A stretch of 64,000 nt of DNA from Campylobacterales bacterium (GTDB lineage Bacteria > Campylobacterota > Campylobacteria > Campylobacterales > Nitratiruptoraceae), in contig JAMONM010000098.1 in NCBI GenBank assembly GCA_027065825.1, positions 1 to 64,000 of the forward strand, given 5' to 3'. Of the stretch, positions 5,820-30,887 are shown piece by piece. The notes under the pieces are model-generated. The model searched no databases. It saw only the letters and a list, made by a program, of their open reading frames with translations, and was not told the origin of the DNA. The translations under genes and the position numbers were made by a program. Within the stretch, counting starts at the first letter, position 1. The number at the start of each line of letters is the position of its first letter.

Positions 5820-7007
5820 ATGCGACTCTTTTTAATATTGGCCGTATTTTTAGGAGCCTTTTTAAAGGGAGAGACCTCTTTGAGGAACAGACTGGGCGAA
5901 AACGCTCCTTTGGAACATACAAAAAGCGAGCTGAGGTTCGGATACAAGAGCGTTAGCGAGGGAGATGCGACCAAGAGGGCGTTTGCGGTGGGAGGTCACC
6001 TTCACTTTTATACGAAGCGGTTTATGAACGTTTCGGGAGTACTTAGCATATATAGCGTGGCCGATTTCGGTCTAAATCCGGATTTCGAATCGAGAGACCA
6101 GGATCTGTTGGGAGCGTCAAAAAGAGGCGGTTCGATGGTAAGCGAGGCCTTTTTAAGATACAGCGGAGGAAAAAGCGTATTGATGGTAGGCAGGATGATG
6201 GTTGATACGCCACATATGGACAGTGACGACATTATGATGGTGCCAAACTTTTTCGAAGGACTCTGTTTCAAAAAAGAGCTGGGTGAAGATTACAGGTTGA
6301 CGCTGGCAAAATTCGACAAAATGGCCGGATGGGAAAACGGGGCTGAGGCCTTTAGTTTTGTAGATATCTCAAAGGTAGCGGGACTTGAGGGAAAAAGCGG
6401 GGGAGTCGCTTTCGCCGCGATGGAGAAGCTCGTTGGAGAGACTCTGTTTGAGGTCTGGTTTTATCGTTTTTTCGATATAGCTGACGATCTGTACGTAAAA
6501 TTTTCAAAAACTTTTTTTACCGAAACCTTCGTACTGGATGCGGCGTTCCAGTTCGACAGGGCGTGGAGCGGGAAGGATAGTTATTTATATGACATACAAA
6601 GCGCCACAGCCGGAGTACTGCTGGAATTGTTCGTAAAAGATGTTAAAATTATGGCTGCCTACAACGAAGAGTTCGGAAGTAGCGCCAGTATGTTCAGTTT
6701 GGGCGGAGGACCCTTTTTTACCTCTATGGAGTATGAGACGATAGACGCTGTTTCTGCGCCGGCCGTTGCTTACAATTTAGGAGTGGAGTTTGAAATGGGC
6801 GATTACGCCTCTTTGGGGTATCTTATAGGAGAGTTTAAGGCAAAAGATGATAATGATTATCATAGTATAGAGCGGGATATCTATATCCAGAGCGATATCG
6901 GCGATAGTTTTTCGTTACAAGCCGTTTTTAGCAGTGTCGACTTTAGGCACGATCAAAACTCTATAAGTTCGTTCAGGCTTATACTAAAAAGAAGCTTTAG
7001 GAGATAG
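5820..7007 (+). CDS. Outer-membrane porin-like protein (Opr/OprD-like family of Campylobacterota)
   Basis: Signal peptide, alternating beta-barrel pattern, VGRMMVDTPHMDSDDIMMVPNFFEG; first gene ahead of feoAB. Confidence 0.7.
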   Translation: MRLFLILAVFLGAFLKGETSLRNRLGENAPLEHTKSELRFGYKSVSEGDATKRAFAVGGHLHFYTKRFMNVSGVLSIYSVADFGLNPDFESRDQDLLGASKRGGSMVSEAFLRYSGGKSVLMVGRMMVDTPHMDSDDIMMVPNFFEGLCFKKELGEDYRLTLAKFDKMAGWENGAEAFSFVDISKVAGLEGKSGGVAFAAMEKLVGETLFEVWFYRFFDIADDLYVKFSKTFFTETFVLDAAFQFDRAWSGKDSYLYDIQSATAGVLLELFVKDVKIMAAYNEEFGSSASMFSLGGGPFFTSMEYETIDAVSAPAVAYNLGVEFEMGDYASLGYLIGEFKAKDDNDYHSIERDIYIQSDIGDSFSLQAVFSSVDFRHDQNSISSFRLILKRSFRR

Positions 7008-22909: not shown

Positions 22910-23566
22910 GTGAGGATACTGCTTTTGGAAGATGATGAAATCCTTGGCGAGAGTCTAAAAGACCTCCTCGAAGGCGAGGGGTTTGAGGTAGAGTGGGTCA
23001 AGGAGTCGCAAAGAGCGCTTGACGTGACCTTCTTGAAAAGATTTTCTCTCTGGATTTTCGATGTCAAAGTTCCGGGAATGGACGGATTTGAGCTGTTAAA
23101 GAGCCTAAGAGCGGCGGGAGACAGAACTCCGGCCATATTCGTCACCGCCCTGACCGATATAGATTCGATCGCAAAAGGGTTCGAATCGGGCGCCGAGGAG
23201 TATATAAAAAAGCCGTTCGATTTTGACGAACTCTTGATCAGAATCAAAGCCCTGTTGAAAAGATCGTACCTCAGCGGAGCCGATGAGATCGAATTTGCCG
23301 ATTTAAAGTTCGATCCCTTGGCGGAAAAGCTCTACAAAAACGGTGAGCCGCTTCATCTGCCCCCTTTGCAGATGAGACTTTTGAAGCTCTTTATGAAAAA
23401 CTGCTGCAAAGTTCTGTCAAAGGAGGAGATAATTTGGGAGATCTCCGGAGGTGAAGAGATAAGTCCGGATGCTTTGAGGGTACATATCAACAGACTCAGA
23501 AAGATCGGATTGCCGATAAAAAATATCAGAAAAGTCGGTTATATATTGGAGCGGGCGGATGAATAA
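22910..23566 (+). CDS. OmpR-family response regulator
   Basis: Receiver MRILLLEDDEILGESL, FVTALTD, KPFDFDEL; C-terminal winged-helix DALRVHINRLRKI...VGYIL. Confidence 0.92.
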   Translation: MRILLLEDDEILGESLKDLLEGEGFEVEWVKESQRALDVTFLKRFSLWIFDVKVPGMDGFELLKSLRAAGDRTPAIFVTALTDIDSIAKGFESGAEEYIKKPFDFDELLIRIKALLKRSYLSGADEIEFADLKFDPLAEKLYKNGEPLHLPPLQMRLLKLFMKNCCKVLSKEEIIWEISGGEEISPDALRVHINRLRKIGLPIKNIRKVGYILERADE

Positions 23567-24623
23567 GAGCGCGAAAACGGCTTTTTGGAAATTTTTCCTT
23601 ATCTATTTTCTATCCGTTGCATTATTGATAGTAGCGGCCGGATTTTTTTATTATAAAGAGCAGTTCAACACTCTGTTGGCAAAAGAGCAGTTTTCTTTGA
23701 TTTGGTACGCTAGAATGTTGAAGATGACGGATTTCAGATATGAAAAAGAGGGTTATTCGTACTCTTTATTGAAAAATTATCCGGGAGAGTTCGATCCTAA
23801 AAATCTGAAAATCGACGAATGCTGTATACAAAAGATAGTGCCAAACAGAAAAGCCGAGGGCTTTATTCTGGTAAAAAAGAGCGTAGAGGGGTTCAAAGAG
23901 TCCATAAATAGCTTAAAAAATATGGTTTTCCTCGTCGAGGCTATACTACTGGCGATCTTCGGCGCGATAAGCTTCTTTTTGGCCAGAAGCTCCATTAAAG
24001 GTTTGCAGGAGAATATAGAGAGACTCGATCTGTTTATAAAAGATCTGATACATGACATAAATACGCCATCCACTTCGATACTGTTAAACGTAAAACTTTT
24101 GAAAAGGTATAAAGAGTGCAAAGAGAGAAGAGAACTCGCAAGAATAGAAAAGAGCGCCAAAGAGCTGGGAAGACTCTACGAAAATCTCAACGTTCTGCTT
24201 CAGAGGGACGCTTTGAAAAAGGAACTGATAGATCCTTGTAAAATTCTGGCGGAGATTTTGGAGATAGTTGAGGGAAGGTATGGAGGAGAGAGAGTAAAAA
24301 CGGAGTGCGAGGGGTTTTTGATAGAGTCGCAACCCGGAGCTTTGAGACAGATACTGCTAAATCTGTTGGATAACGCTTTTAAACACGGCGATTTGGGAGC
24401 CAAAGTCAAAATCTGGAGCAGGGATAGAAAGATTTTCATAAAAAACGAGGGGGCCGTTATTGAAAACCCCTCAAAGATTTTCGATCTGCACTATACAGAA
24501 AGCGCCAAAGGAAGCGGTATAGGTTTGCACATTACTAAAACGCTCTGCGACGCTCTTGGAATAAAGATCGAAGTGGAATCCAAAAAGAATTTCGGCACGG
24601 TTTTTTCGCTGGATTTCAATTAA
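23559..24623 (+). CDS. Sensor histidine kinase
   Basis: H-box DLIHDINTPSTS, N-box NLLDNAFKHGD, G-box GSGIGLHITK; TM segments; 8-bp overlap with response regulator. Confidence 0.92.
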   Translation: MNKSAKTAFWKFFLIYFLSVALLIVAAGFFYYKEQFNTLLAKEQFSLIWYARMLKMTDFRYEKEGYSYSLLKNYPGEFDPKNLKIDECCIQKIVPNRKAEGFILVKKSVEGFKESINSLKNMVFLVEAILLAIFGAISFFLARSSIKGLQENIERLDLFIKDLIHDINTPSTSILLNVKLLKRYKECKERRELARIEKSAKELGRLYENLNVLLQRDALKKELIDPCKILAEILEIVEGRYGGERVKTECEGFLIESQPGALRQILLNLLDNAFKHGDLGAKVKIWSRDRKIFIKNEGAVIENPSKIFDLHYTESAKGSGIGLHITKTLCDALGIKIEVESKKNFGTVFSLDFN

Positions 24624-24670: not shown

Positions 24671-24907
24671 ATGAGACTGGAAAACCTGGCTATAAACAAA
24701 AACGGTTTTGCTTTTGACCCCACTACCGGTGAGACGTTCACCCTAAACGAAACGGCCATAAAGATCGTAGAACTGATGGTCAAAGGGGAGAGTGAAAAGA
24801 GTATAGCCCAAAAACTCTCTGAAGAGTTTGAGGTCTCTTCACAAGAGGCATTTAACGATGTGCTCGATTTCAAAGAGAGATTGAAACTGTACGGATTGAT
24901 ATCATGA
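24671..24907 (+). CDS. PqqD-family protein (RiPP recognition element-like)
   Basis: 78 aa; LNETAIKIVELMVKGESEKSIAQKLSEEFEVSSQEAFNDVLDFKERLKLYGLI matches the PqqD-like winged-helix pattern. Confidence 0.85.
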   Translation: MRLENLAINKNGFAFDPTTGETFTLNETAIKIVELMVKGESEKSIAQKLSEEFEVSSQEAFNDVLDFKERLKLYGLIS

Positions 24908-25935
24908 TAGTGGCGGTTAGCGGAATCAACGATACAGATAATCCGGGACCAGGGATAGGTATCGCAAGGAGCCTCAAAGAGGCTGACGGTAACATAAAAA
25001 CGGTTGGACTGAGTTACGACATTCAAGATCCCGGCAACTATATGGATTTTCTAATAGACAAAAGCTATATACTCACATATCCCACTCAGGGATGGGAACC
25101 GATAATGAACAGACTCTTGCATATCAAGGATAGTTTCGGACTGGATTTCATAATCCCGGCTCTTGATGCCGAACTGCCTCAGTATATAAAATACCAAAAA
25201 GAGCTGGAGGATTTCGGGATAAAAACTCTTTTGCCCTCTATGGAGCAGTTTGAACTAAGAAGCAAAGAGCATCTCCAAAGCGTCAGCGAGACTTTGGGAA
25301 TAACCTATCCAAAGACCGTTAAAGTCTTCAATACCGACCAGTTAAAAGAGGCTCTAAAAGAGATCGGTTTTCCCTGCGTGGTAAAGGGGAATTACTACAA
25401 AGCCTATATAGTAAAATCGATGCCGGAGGCTCTTTACTATTTTAGCGAGATCTCCAACGAATGGGGCTTTCCCATACTGGTTCAGGAGGTTGTATACGGA
25501 GAGGAGCTAAACGTGGTGGGCGCCGCCGACAAAGAGGGAGAATCGTTAGGTCTTGTGGCCATCAAAAAGATGACCACCACCCATCTTGGAAAAATCTGGA
25601 ACGGTGTGACGATCAAGCATCAAAAACTGCTGGAAGTGGCCGCCGATTTCGTGAGAAACTACAGATGGAGAGGGCCTTTTGAGCTCGAATGTATAGTCAA
25701 AGATGATGAGATAACTCTAATAGAGATAAACCCCAGATTTCCTGCATGGGTCTATTTCGCCACGGGCGTCGGAATAAATTTGCCCTATAGAGTACTTAAA
25801 AGCGCCTACGGAGATGACGTGGACAGAAGAAGCGATTATGAAAGCGGCAAGGTGATGATACGATACACCTACGAGTTGATAACCGATATAAAAAAAGTGA
25901 GCGCCTTTGCTACCAAAGGAGAGAGTGATGAGTAA
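24904..25935 (+). CDS. ATP-grasp domain ligase
   Basis: CPSase-L-like ATP-grasp: FPCVVKGNYYKAYIV, VQEVVYGEELNVVGA, PFELECIVKDDEITLIEINPRFPAW; ATGA overlap with upstream PqqD gene. Confidence 0.85.
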   Translation: MIVAVSGINDTDNPGPGIGIARSLKEADGNIKTVGLSYDIQDPGNYMDFLIDKSYILTYPTQGWEPIMNRLLHIKDSFGLDFIIPALDAELPQYIKYQKELEDFGIKTLLPSMEQFELRSKEHLQSVSETLGITYPKTVKVFNTDQLKEALKEIGFPCVVKGNYYKAYIVKSMPEALYYFSEISNEWGFPILVQEVVYGEELNVVGAADKEGESLGLVAIKKMTTTHLGKIWNGVTIKHQKLLEVAADFVRNYRWRGPFELECIVKDDEITLIEINPRFPAWVYFATGVGINLPYRVLKSAYGDDVDRRSDYESGKVMIRYTYELITDIKKVSAFATKGESDE

Positions 25936-27277
25936 AAAAGAGTATGAAAAACCGGTCATTATCAGAGTCGAAAGCGGCTTTTCAAAAGCAGGCGTACCGT
26001 TACCCAAACAGCGTGTGAGAAAAAGCATAGGCGGCGTATCTATTAACGAATTGGTAAATAAGTACGGTTCGCCCCTTTTCGTATTTGAGGAAAAGAGCAT
26101 AAGAGAGAGATACAAAAGAGCCTACGAAGCCTTTTCTACCAGATATCCTAACGTGGAATTCGGATGGAGTTATAAAACGAACTATTTAAAGGCAATTTGC
26201 GCCGTTTTCCATCAGGAGGGGGCTATCGCGGAGGTGGTGAGCGAGTTTGAGTACCAAAAGGCGCGGGAGCTCGGCATTGAGGGCAAAGACATCATTTACA
26301 ACGGACCTTACAAACCTTACGACTCTCTTATGAGGGCGGTAAAAGAGGGGGCGAAGATACATATCGATACGTTTGAGGAGATCAACGATCTTGAGCGAAT
26401 CGCGAAAGAGCTTAAAAAAGAGGTCCCCGTAGCCATACGACTAAATATGGATACCGGCGTATATCCTCAGTGGAGCCGTTTTGGTTTCAATATCGAAAGC
26501 GGCCAGGCGATGGACGCCGTCAAACGGATAGAAGCCGGCGGAGTGCTCAGATTGAACGGTTTGCACGCGCATATTGGAACGTTTATGCTCGATCCTCACG
26601 CCTATTACGTGGAGACGTCCAAAATGGTGCAATTTATGAATAGCGTGGAAACGAAAAGCGGATTTTCCATAGAGTATATAGACGTAGGCGGCGGATTCGC
26701 CTCGAAAAATCGTCTCAAAGGGATATATCAGCCTCCGGAAATAGTCGTTCCTTCGATAGACGATTACGCCGAGGCGATTACTTCGGCCATTTATGAAAAT
26801 ATACACGGCAACAGATATCCGAAACTCTATCTCGAAACCGGCAGGCATCTTATCGACGAGGCCGGTTATTTAGTGACCTCCGTGGTAGCCAGCAAAACTT
26901 TGCCCGACTCGAGACGTAGCTATATCGTTGATGCGGGAGTCAATCTGCTCTATACCTATTTTTGGTACAAGTTTAACATTGAGCTAACCGAAGAAAAGAG
27001 CGGAATCAGCGAACCCTCCGTAATAAACGGTCCTCTTTGTATGAATATAGACGTTATAGAGGACTCGATTTTGCTGCCGAGGCTAAAACGCGGCGATATG
27101 CTGGTTATATCTCCGGTAGGAGCCTATAACGTAACTCAATGGATGCAGTTTATCAGATACAGACCGAGGGTTTTGATGGTCATGGAGGACGGAAGCGTGG
27201 AGATCATAAGAGAGAGCGAAGATCTGAGCGATATAGAAAGAAGAGAAAAACTGCCCAAAAAGCTTGAAATAAGGTAG
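25928..27277 (+). CDS. Diaminopimelate/ornithine decarboxylase-like PLP enzyme (fold type III) with N-terminal YxxP tail
   Basis: YGSPLFVFEEKSIRERY, PLP lysine FGWSYKTNYLKAI, LHAHIGTF, DVGGGF, YLETGRHL, GPLCMNIDVIE; start at 25928 (RBS aaaggagag). Confidence 0.85.
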   Translation: MSKKEYEKPVIIRVESGFSKAGVPLPKQRVRKSIGGVSINELVNKYGSPLFVFEEKSIRERYKRAYEAFSTRYPNVEFGWSYKTNYLKAICAVFHQEGAIAEVVSEFEYQKARELGIEGKDIIYNGPYKPYDSLMRAVKEGAKIHIDTFEEINDLERIAKELKKEVPVAIRLNMDTGVYPQWSRFGFNIESGQAMDAVKRIEAGGVLRLNGLHAHIGTFMLDPHAYYVETSKMVQFMNSVETKSGFSIEYIDVGGGFASKNRLKGIYQPPEIVVPSIDDYAEAITSAIYENIHGNRYPKLYLETGRHLIDEAGYLVTSVVASKTLPDSRRSYIVDAGVNLLYTYFWYKFNIELTEEKSGISEPSVINGPLCMNIDVIEDSILLPRLKRGDMLVISPVGAYNVTQWMQFIRYRPRVLMVMEDGSVEIIRESEDLSDIERREKLPKKLEIR

Positions 27278-27280
27278 CTA

Positions 27281-29362
27281 GTGAAAATAGTATCGGCAAA
27301 AAAAGAGCTAAAAAGATATCTCAACTCGACCCTTTCTGCCTACGCCGAGGTTCTGTTTATTCAAAACAGAGCCATAGGGGCCGTTATTTTAGCCGTTACT
27401 TTCGTCGATTTGGGCATTGGATTGGGGGCTTTGATAGGTATTGTCAGCGCTCTTGCATTTGCGGCGTTTGTGAGAATGGACCCGCAGTTTCTTGAGAGCG
27501 GCTTTTATATCTATAATCCTCTTTTGGTGGGAATGAGCGTAGGTTTTTTGTTTAAAATTTCGCTGTTGACGATATTTTTGGCAATAGTTGCCTCGATTTT
27601 GGCTTTTTTGATCACTATCGTTATGAATTCTCTATTGTCCTCTTACGGCGTACCGATACTCTCTTTGCCTTTTGCCACCGTCAGTTCGGTACTGTATCTG
27701 GCCTCATTAAACTATTCCAATCTATTTTACGAATCTTTGAACAACCACGCGTTTTTGACTGTAGGGGAGATGTGTTTGCCGTTGTGGATCTCCTCTTTTT
27801 TCAAGTCGATGGGAACCATATTTTTTCTTCCCAGCGTATGGGTGGGCGCCATCTTTTTTTCGCTTTTGCTTTTGCACTCGAGGATTGCCGCAGTTTTGGC
27901 CTTAGGAGGGTACTATTTCGGTGTTTGGATCCACTCTCTTTTGAGCGGTTCTTACGTAAATTCCCTGCTGAACCCATATGCGTTTAACTATATTTTGGTT
28001 GCGGCGGCTCTGGGCGGAATCTTTTTGGTTCCTGGGATCAGAAGTTATCTGCTTTCGGCGCTGGGAGTTGCCGTATCCGTCGTTTTGGTAGACGCCACGG
28101 CGATTTTTTGGACCCTTTATAAAATACCCGTTTTTACGCTTCCCTTTAATTTGAGCGTTATAACCTTTTTGTTTGTTTTGAGACTGTTAAAATACAGAGA
28201 GTTCGCCTACGTAATCAAAAGGACTCCCGAGAATACTCTGAGCTACTACCTATTGAGTCTGTTTAGATTCAAAAGCCACGAGAGCGCCGTGTTTTTGCCG
28301 TTTTCGGGCAAATGGAGCGTCTATCAGGGATTTGACGACGTATGGACTCATCAGGGTAGATGGAGATACGCTTACGATTTTGTTATCAGAGACGAAAACG
28401 GTAGCAGCTACGCCTTCGATGGTAGTAGACTCGAAGACTATTACGCGTATAAAAAGCCCGTTCTCTCTCCTGTAAGCGGCTACGTCGTAGAGACTCTCTC
28501 CTCTTTGCCCGACAATCCCATAGGAGAGGTGGACAATATAAACAATTGGGGCAACTACGTTATAATCTACTCTACGGCCGGCTTTTACGTAGAGGTTTCG
28601 CATCTTTCTCAAAATTCGCTGAAAGTGAAAAAGGGCGATTTCGTCGAGGCCGGTCAGATAATCGGTCTGTGCGGCAATAGCGGTTATTCACCCGAACCCC
28701 ATATCCATATTCAGGTGCAGGAGGGTCCGCATTTAGGCAGCAAAACCATGCCTTTTAATTTCGTTGCCTATACGCAGAAGGAGGAGATAAAATTTTACGA
28801 CAGGCCCGAAAAAGGCGAATCGATCTCCAGCTTTAGCTCGGATAAATCTTTGGATTCCAGATTGAGTTTCGTTTTGGACAGCGTTTACGAGTTTGAGGTA
28901 TTTAAGGATATGGCCAAAATCGACTCCTTTAGCCTCGAAGTTAAAATGGACAGGTTCAGCGGCAGATTCTTTTTCGAAGACGAAAGAGGAAACAGACTCT
29001 TTTTCGCAAAAGAGTACGGAGTCTTCTATTTTTACGATTATGTGGGAGATGACGAGAGCTATCTAAAGAGAATTTTTATGGCTGTTCCCAGAATCGCCCT
29101 AAGCGGTAGCAGAAGGGTTGTATGGAGAGATTTCCTAACCCCTAGGATCGTACATAGCGGTTTGAAAAGGGCTCTTTATATGTTTTTGGCCTCTTTTTGC
29201 TACAAGCCCTTTTTATACGGAGGGGTTTGGGAAAAAGAGGGTAACCTCATTAGAGGCGAAATCAGAGGTGACAAGATATTTAAAAGCGAAACGGTCATAG
29301 ACGAAGTAAACGGATTCGCTTCTATACGACTGGATGAAATTTTAATCAGGAGGAAAAAATGA
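27281..29362 (+). CDS. Urea transporter-family membrane domain fused to M23/LytM peptidase-like domain
   Basis: N-terminal ~300 aa hydrophobic, UT-like (YNPLLVGMSVGFLF, LSLPFATVSSVLYL, VFTLPFNLSVITFLFVL); C-terminal M23 features THQGRWRYAYDF, GNYVIIYSTAGFYVEVSHLSQNSLKVKKGDFVEAGQIIGLCGNSGYSPEPHIHIQV; GTG start. Confidence 0.8.
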   Translation: MKIVSAKKELKRYLNSTLSAYAEVLFIQNRAIGAVILAVTFVDLGIGLGALIGIVSALAFAAFVRMDPQFLESGFYIYNPLLVGMSVGFLFKISLLTIFLAIVASILAFLITIVMNSLLSSYGVPILSLPFATVSSVLYLASLNYSNLFYESLNNHAFLTVGEMCLPLWISSFFKSMGTIFFLPSVWVGAIFFSLLLLHSRIAAVLALGGYYFGVWIHSLLSGSYVNSLLNPYAFNYILVAAALGGIFLVPGIRSYLLSALGVAVSVVLVDATAIFWTLYKIPVFTLPFNLSVITFLFVLRLLKYREFAYVIKRTPENTLSYYLLSLFRFKSHESAVFLPFSGKWSVYQGFDDVWTHQGRWRYAYDFVIRDENGSSYAFDGSRLEDYYAYKKPVLSPVSGYVVETLSSLPDNPIGEVDNINNWGNYVIIYSTAGFYVEVSHLSQNSLKVKKGDFVEAGQIIGLCGNSGYSPEPHIHIQVQEGPHLGSKTMPFNFVAYTQKEEIKFYDRPEKGESISSFSSDKSLDSRLSFVLDSVYEFEVFKDMAKIDSFSLEVKMDRFSGRFFFEDERGNRLFFAKEYGVFYFYDYVGDDESYLKRIFMAVPRIALSGSRRVVWRDFLTPRIVHSGLKRALYMFLASFCYKPFLYGGVWEKEGNLIRGEIRGDKIFKSETVIDEVNGFASIRLDEILIRRKK

Positions 29363-30264
29363 AAAAAACGTTGATAGTTTCTGCGGCACTTGCCCTTTCG
29401 TTGAGTGCGGGCGATATAGACGTGGCGGTTCCTTTTGGCGGTTATATCGATTACGGTTCGGACGGAGCCAAAGATAGCGCTTATTACGGCGGATTGTACG
29501 TGGAAGGAACCAATGGCGTGCATAAAATAAAACTGCAGTACAGCTATTTGGATATAGATTACAGATTTTCGGACAGCATCGCTCAGAACGATTACACGAT
29601 CGCGTATGAAAACGGATCCTTTAAAGAGCTCCTCGTCGGCGGCGGTTTTCACTATATAGATAGTGACGACTATCTAACTGACGGAGGAAAGATTCTCTTT
29701 TTGAGGCTGCAAAAATTTTCTGTATACGATTTCGATACCGGTTTGGATATTTATTACTCGAAATATTCCAATTTTGACCCTTCGCTGAACGTTTGGCAGT
29801 TTTCTCCCTCGATCGGAAAATTCATAAAAGGGTGCAGATACGGCAATTTTTATCTAAACGCCACATACAACTATATAACTTTCAAAAGCTCCAGAGTTAC
29901 GCAAACCGTTGTAGCAAACTCCCGAATGCCTGTTGTCTCTAATAGACACACCATAACCGTATATGAGGAATATTCCAGCGATAACCACTCTCTAGAGCTT
30001 AGCGCCACCAACTACTACGGCAAATTTACCACCAAAGGATATGTCTGGTTCGGTAAACAGGCGTTTGCGGTCAGAGACGGAGGATTTACGGTTTACAATC
30101 TCAACGAAGTACATAAAGGCGGGGCCGGATTATCGGTAAATTACGACTTCTCATCCAATATGGGGGTCGGTTGTTCGTTGACGTACGAGAAATTTACGGA
30201 TACGGAAACCGGCGGCGATACTTCCATGATGGTAGCCGGAGTTTCTCTCAATTATATGTTTTAG
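29359..30264 (+). CDS. Outer-membrane beta-barrel protein, hypothetical
   Basis: Signal peptide MKKTLIVSAALALSLSAGD; alternating Tyr-rich strands; C-terminal phenylalanine (VAGVSLNYMF); ATGA overlap with upstream gene. Confidence 0.7.
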   Translation: MKKTLIVSAALALSLSAGDIDVAVPFGGYIDYGSDGAKDSAYYGGLYVEGTNGVHKIKLQYSYLDIDYRFSDSIAQNDYTIAYENGSFKELLVGGGFHYIDSDDYLTDGGKILFLRLQKFSVYDFDTGLDIYYSKYSNFDPSLNVWQFSPSIGKFIKGCRYGNFYLNATYNYITFKSSRVTQTVVANSRMPVVSNRHTITVYEEYSSDNHSLELSATNYYGKFTTKGYVWFGKQAFAVRDGGFTVYNLNEVHKGGAGLSVNYDFSSNMGVGCSLTYEKFTDTETGGDTSMMVAGVSLNYMF

Positions 30265-30272
30265 GAGCCTAT

Positions 30273-30887
30273 ATGAGATTTGTTGTGTTTATGATTATCT
30301 CGCTCTTTTCGGCGTTTGCCTACGAGGATTTCGTTAAAAGAGCCTATTACGACTCCTACAACTACGAAAAGATGGGAGATTACGAAGATGCGATAAAATC
30401 ATTGATGCCTGTTTTGGAAAAGTATCCCAAAAGCTATACTCCCAATTTGAGACTCGGATGGCTATATTATCTTTCGGGGAAATATAAAAACGCCCTTTAC
30501 CACTATCAAAAGGCCGTTGTCGCGATTAAAAGCGCGGTGCTTCCCCGACTGGGAATAGCTTATATTTATCTGTTGCAATCCAGATTCAAAGAGGCCCTTT
30601 CGATCTGTAACGATATATTAACTACCGACTACTACAACTATTACGCTAATCTCTACGCCGCAAAAGCTTTGTTGGGAAAAGGCGACCTGGATAATTGCGA
30701 AGCCATCTCGCTGAAAATGTTGGCTCTTTATCCGACTGATGTGAAATTCCTGGAGGTTTTGGGGGAGTTATATATAAAAAGAGGCAGAATCGAAGAGGCC
30801 AAAAAGGTTTTTGAGGATATTTTGATTTTGGATCCGAAAAACCTGAAGGCTTACGATTTTTTTCAAAATCGTATCAAATCAAAATGA
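30273..30887 (+). CDS. Tetratricopeptide repeat protein, exported
   Basis: Signal peptide MRFVVFMIISLFSAFA; TPR-like repeats GDYEDAIKSLMPVLEKYPKSYTPNLRLGWLYYLSGKYKNALYHYQKAV, GRIEEAKKVFEDILILDP; ATG at 30273 preferred over the 30171 ORF start. Confidence 0.8.
   Translation: MRFVVFMIISLFSAFAYEDFVKRAYYDSYNYEKMGDYEDAIKSLMPVLEKYPKSYTPNLRLGWLYYLSGKYKNALYHYQKAVVAIKSAVLPRLGIAYIYLLQSRFKEALSICNDILTTDYYNYYANLYAAKALLGKGDLDNCEAISLKMLALYPTDVKFLEVLGELYIKRGRIEEAKKVFEDILILDPKNLKAYDFFQNRIKSK

Follow-up and report, generated by a model that had tools for sequence, protein, structure and literature searches.

The window, the whole stretch of 64,000 nucleotides analyzed here, carries on its forward strand an operon in which the genes run in the order response regulator, histidine kinase, PqqD, ATP-grasp, decarboxylase, UT-M23, 301-aa protein and TPR. 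The response regulator and histidine kinase (22910..24623) stand directly upstream of a gene for a discrete PqqD/RRE protein of 78 aa (24671..24907), assigned from PF05402 and its structural model, which is followed by a gene for an ATP-grasp ligase (ATPgrasp_Ter/PRK12767-like; 24904..25935) that overlaps both of its neighbors. The next gene (25928..27277) encodes a PLP-dependent decarboxylase of the alanine-racemase fold, 449 aa long and nearest to FslC/FigC, then to LysA, D-ODC and BtrK; PqqD lies two genes upstream of it, with the ATP-grasp gene in between. The conserved gene after the decarboxylase encodes a urea-transporter domain fused to an M23 peptidase domain (UT-M23; 27281..29362), and the last two genes encode a 301-aa protein with a signal-peptide-like start and no family match (29359..30264), which by inference is perhaps an outer-membrane barrel, and a TPR protein (30273..30887). 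Many related Campylobacterota loci also have a response-regulator match close to the module. No description of the operon was found in the literature searched, nor did a literature search find one of the UT-M23 fusion, which stands behind the decarboxylase in two phyla (window 27281-29362; L130:9343-11547).

The open reading frame, start and sequence of the decarboxylase, its YxxP tail and the position of PqqD two genes upstream are all as an earlier note on this DNA described them. The gene starts with an ATG at 25928, with AGGAG at 25917-25921, and its start overlaps the stop codon of the ATP-grasp gene (TAA, 25933-25935); the N-terminus of the protein reads MSKKEYEKPVIIRVESGFSKAGVPLPKQRVRKSIGGV. 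Among the solved relatives that cover the N-terminal fold, FslC (7kh2) aligns to residues 32-428 of the decarboxylase and LysA (1tuf) to residues 34-444. Because these relatives align only from about residue 32, the decarboxylase has some 31 extra N-terminal residues (residues 1-31; 25928..26020) preceding the folded enzyme. The genome has a LysA of its own on another contig (G000:C74), which lacks the tail, starts directly with the fold and has the loop CESGD. The tail-less LysA and the alignment of the solved relatives together indicate that this enzyme is a distinct one and that its N-terminal extension is genuine.

The identity of that enzyme is not captured by either of the families compared with it. 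Against the LysA family TIGR01048 the decarboxylase scores 228.6 bits, where the cut-off is 297.9, and it has the active-site loop CMNID, shared by 158 of 169 relatives, in place of CESGD, so that it meets neither the score nor the loop expected of a LysA. Against the FslC family NF041039 (N-citrylornithine decarboxylase) it reaches 232 bits, also short of the cut-off of 500. The closest solved relative by both sequence and fold is nevertheless FslC/FigC (7kh2), at 31% identity.

The tail is present in all orthologs with a readable N-terminus, and its conservation is concentrated in two spots, outside which it is variable. The first is the motif Y6-x-x-P9-x-I11 (25943..25960), the presumed PqqD-binding sequence. 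In the 170 readable tails from related loci, Pro9 is invariant (170/170), residue 6 is Tyr in 151 and Phe in 19 and nothing else, and residue 11 is Ile, Leu or Val (153/12/5). The leader motif bound by RREs is [Y/W]xxPx[L/V/I/F/A], and the YxxPxI of the decarboxylase tail is the same motif (PMC13381572). The second spot, K20-x-G22 (25985..25993), follows the tail Tyr by about 14-15 residues in 166/169 tails, the Lys alone being kept in 168/169, and contains a possible acceptor lysine. The leader-like pattern proposed in the earlier note therefore stands in its Y-x-x-P-x-I part, whereas the downstream G-x-F is not conserved and Lys-x-Gly is conserved instead. The only tail in which Gln replaces the Lys of K-x-G, that of locus L229, offers a natural test of the acceptor-lysine idea.

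In an AlphaFold2 model of the decarboxylase built with 86 homologues, the mean pLDDT is 89, but that of the tail is 52 for residues 1-10 and 42 for residues 11-20, rising to 97 from residue 31. The low values over residues 1-20 suggest that the conserved segment is unfolded in the lone protein, and a tail that is conserved yet predicted to be unfolded is what a docking motif looks like.

The putative partner of this tail has the properties of an RRE. The PqqD protein scores 51.1 bits against PF05402 (cut-off 23.4), which places it in the family, and its AlphaFold2 model (pLDDT 93.9) has the winged helix-turn-helix fold that defines an RRE. The best PDB matches of the model are the RRE-leader complexes TbiB1 (5v1u) and TfuB1 (6jx3), followed by the PqqD structures 3g2b and 5sxy. 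A PF05402 search found it to be the single PqqD of the genome. In the RRE LppB, the Tyr of YxxP forms a hydrogen bond with D70 and the kink at the Pro is kept in place by N33; mutation of D70 or N33 weakened or almost abolished binding (PMC13381572). Alignment to TfuB1 matches Asn26 (codon 24746..24748) and Asp63 (codon 24857..24859) of the window's PqqD to N33 and D70 of LppB, with the same spacing of 37 residues. That Asn26 and Asp63 are the gripping residues is an inference from sequence homology, for which there are no binding data. Both are nearly invariant among the PqqD proteins; two proteins lack the Asn and have Ser (L037) or Gly (L047) in its place. At another related locus, L110, two PqqD genes of the same family as the one at 24671-24907 lie about 5.3 kb apart (842-1087 and 6388-6612).

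Residue 6 of the tail covaries with Asp63 of PqqD. Over 157 locus pairs, all 140 Tyr tails were paired with Asp63 and all 17 Phe tails with a PqqD that has another residue there (Tyr in 8, Ser in 7, Ala in 1 and His in 1). Loci L115 and L189 are examples with a Phe tail. Since Phe has no hydroxyl for Asp to bind, the switch from Tyr/Asp to Phe/non-Asp fits a structural contact. The columns tested as controls comprised 85 of PqqD, 450 of the decarboxylase and 350 of the ATP-grasp protein, and, the tail residue itself aside, Asp63 alone separates the Tyr and Phe classes, while 884 other columns do not. On a tree of the decarboxylase bodies each trait requires only two changes, both traits at the same places, and none of 180,000 characters simulated on that tree reproduced the pattern. 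A decarboxylase placed among the Phe clades, that of locus L131, has a Tyr tail, and its unlinked PqqD has Asp. There were only two independent joint changes, and a paired sign test cannot reach significance. The covariation, a pattern in aligned sequences, is decisive support for the putative contact between tail and PqqD, yet it comprises two joint changes only.

The genes for these proteins form a conserved module. The set of PqqD, ATP-grasp, tailed decarboxylase, UT-M23 and TPR is kept across Campylobacterota and Bacteroidota (Ignavibacteria included), and a scan of bacterial genomes recovered the same module with UT-M23 and TPR behind it mainly in Bacteroidota, whose culturable carriers include Pedobacter; a second search at phylum level matched the same genomes and gave no new data. 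Among 200 genomes of the order, 31 have a clear ortholog of the tailed decarboxylase, and the ATP-grasp gene is present in those 31 and in no others. Of the first 111 loci, all those with enough upstream contig have PqqD ahead of ATP-grasp, with the exception of the chimeric L059/L061 and of L131. In L131 the decarboxylase stands alone, unlinked from PqqD and ATP-grasp. It was considered as an ortholog without PqqD and rejected as such, as PqqD and ATP-grasp adjoin each other on another contig of that genome; the functional link among the three proteins has outlived their gene order there. The entry L059/L061 (JAKIUX010000061.1, a Hydrogenimonas MAG) comes from an apparently chimeric contig, in which a start resembling AccC continues in frame into foreign sequence, followed by a tailed decarboxylase of the Bacteroidota type; it was part of the first 16-row tail alignment and was left out of the covariation count.

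A search for other ligands of PqqD left the enzyme tail as the only sequence resembling a leader. No other credible YxxP-tagged protein or small peptide was seen in the loci scanned. Genome-wide, the codon pattern for Y-x-[K/R]-P-x-I gave 27 matches, similar to the counts for reversed-pattern controls, and no gene start with YxxPxI other than that of the decarboxylase was found with this pattern, which omits CGN codons for Arg and Leu or Val at the last position. A RiPP precursor peptide, with a leader and a core, would appear as a short ORF with the motif; the scanned loci yielded none, nor did the genome as far as the codon pattern reaches. The B2 protease and Asn-synthetase-like cyclase required of a lasso-peptide cluster were absent from a Pfam scan of nine operon genes.

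We consider it probable (roughly 0.7) that the tail is an RRE-docking tag for PqqD, and that the RRE holds the decarboxylase, probably near the ATP-grasp ligase, in a ligate-then-decarboxylate pathway that has no precursor peptide. PqqD would bind the YxxPxI of the tail in the same manner as a lasso or PQQ leader, with Asp63 taking the Tyr hydroxyl and Asn26 the Pro kink, and the PLP decarboxylase would thereby be kept in place, most likely next to the ATP-grasp ligase. The only basis for a contact between PqqD and ATP-grasp is gene order, including the overlap of their genes. An ATP-grasp ligase followed by an FslC/FigC-like decarboxylase suggests that an amino acid may first be ligated to another group and may then lose its carboxylate to the decarboxylase, in the manner of the FslC/FigC and BtrK pathways. 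From there the product would pass to the membrane and periplasmic proteins that the operon encodes, namely UT-M23, the possible outer-membrane protein and the TPR protein; the UT-M23 fusion and the TPR protein suggest that it reaches or acts on the envelope. The chemistry and the role in export are inferences, as is physical binding of the tail. The earlier proposal that the upstream PqqD binds the tail, either as a docking tag or as a substrate, is nonetheless supported by conservation, by the exact covariation and by the presence of a single PqqD, although binding data are lacking. Neither of the observations by which sequence analysis could have refuted it was made: the tail proved to be conserved among homologues, and the orthologs found all come from genomes in which PqqD is present or cannot be ruled out.

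Docking is favored over a substrate role, but the choice between them is undecided, and docking alone leaves the near-invariance of Lys-x-Gly beyond the motif unexplained. It is possible, though unlikely, that the tail is a RiPP-like substrate in cis, in which PqqD grips the YxxPxI leader, the ATP-grasp ligase loads an amino acid on Lys20 some 14 residues further on, and the enzyme's own active site decarboxylates it; a single polypeptide would then comprise the leader, a built-in carrier site (compare BtrI for BtrK) and the modifying enzyme. A Lys kept in nearly every tail at an almost fixed distance past the recognition motif, an ATP-grasp ligase that is always present, and the relatives BtrK and FigC, whose amino-acid substrates are bound to a carrier or some other group when decarboxylated, would all fit such a substrate, as would the lack of a precursor peptide nearby. 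This arrangement is harder to reconcile with the Gln in place of the Lys in L229 and with the variability of the remaining tail; moreover, it needs a release step that no gene obviously supplies, and it makes more assumptions than docking does. RREs are best known from RiPP clusters (PMC7470986), and a true precursor might be encoded elsewhere in the genome, with the tail mimicking its leader to regulate or recruit the enzyme. We regard this as very unlikely, given that no other YxxPxI start turned up in the scanned neighborhoods, that the codon pattern searched revealed none elsewhere in the genome, and that the exact covariation marks the tail itself as a principal ligand.

The same covariation bears on readings in which the tail has no relation to PqqD. 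Enzymes commonly have N-terminal arms that contribute to their own fold, and the occurrence of the tail in every ortholog where it could be read would suit a dimer arm, a lid or another structural or regulatory part of the decarboxylase. Residues 1-20 are modeled with low confidence, however, and no column of the decarboxylase covaries with tail residue 6 as Asp63 of PqqD does, which leaves this reading barely plausible. YxxP is a short motif that could resemble a lasso leader by chance, but it is conserved over about 170 sequences in two phyla and covaries with the position of the RRE for which Tyr binding is known; chance resemblance is in practice refuted by this conservation and covariation and is scarcely credible.

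If the docking reading is correct, the module would combine elements of several known systems. The discrete lasso RREs TfuB1/FusB1 (6jx3) and TbiB1 (5v1u) with their leader, and LppB with LppA (PMC13381572), share with this PqqD the RRE fold, the Asn and Asp that grip YxxP, and a YxxPx[I/L/V] ligand. The ligand of these RREs is a short precursor, whereas here the N-terminus of a metabolic enzyme of 449 aa is inferred to take that part, and the module, unlike lasso clusters, lacks the B2 protease, the cyclase and a precursor gene. The PqqD of PQQ biosynthesis likewise has PF05402 and the RRE fold in common with the window's protein, but it presents PqqA to the radical SAM enzyme PqqE, and neither was found in the module. 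BtrJ of butirosin biosynthesis is an ATP-grasp ligase. The BtrJ/BtrI/BtrK system resembles the module in pairing such a ligase with an alanine-racemase-fold decarboxylase that acts on a tethered amino acid (BtrK, PMC7857480). Butirosin biosynthesis uses an acyl carrier protein as the tether; no such protein was identified in the module, where an RRE stands instead. FslC/FigC decarboxylates an amino acid already joined to citrate, and BtrK, of the same clade, acts on a carrier protein (PMC7857480). As in FigC, the residue that follows the catalytic Cys of the decarboxylase is Met and not the acidic residue to which basic side chains bind (PMC7857480). The decarboxylase differs in that the ligase of its operon is an ATP-grasp protein and not an NIS synthetase, and in that FslC does not align to the YxxP tail.

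PqqD-like genes near ATP-grasp genes are now read as signs of RiPP clusters, and orphans are counted as cases in which the precursor was not found. In the present case a neighboring enzyme appears to supply the missing ligand with its N-terminus, so that an adaptor role for RREs in putting together non-RiPP pathways is probable; most likely, known RRE-leader recognition has been turned to assembling a non-RiPP enzyme pair. This suggests that the peptide-gripping RRE module also serves in the assembly of ordinary enzymes, and the present module, conserved across Bacteroidota and Campylobacterota, is one in which the idea can be tested. It also provides a rule for genome mining, in which YxxPx[ILV] starts on full-length neighbors are sought together with an Asp at the α3 position.

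The decarboxylase gene is not intact at every related locus. In a genome of the same genus (L036, G077:C1) several stops interrupt it, whereas PqqD and ATP-grasp are unbroken; the matches to the response regulator, the kinase and UT-M23 are likewise only partial in that genome. At L060 (G101:C1:204481-205732) the decarboxylase is split over two ORFs, which reflects a frameshift or decay.
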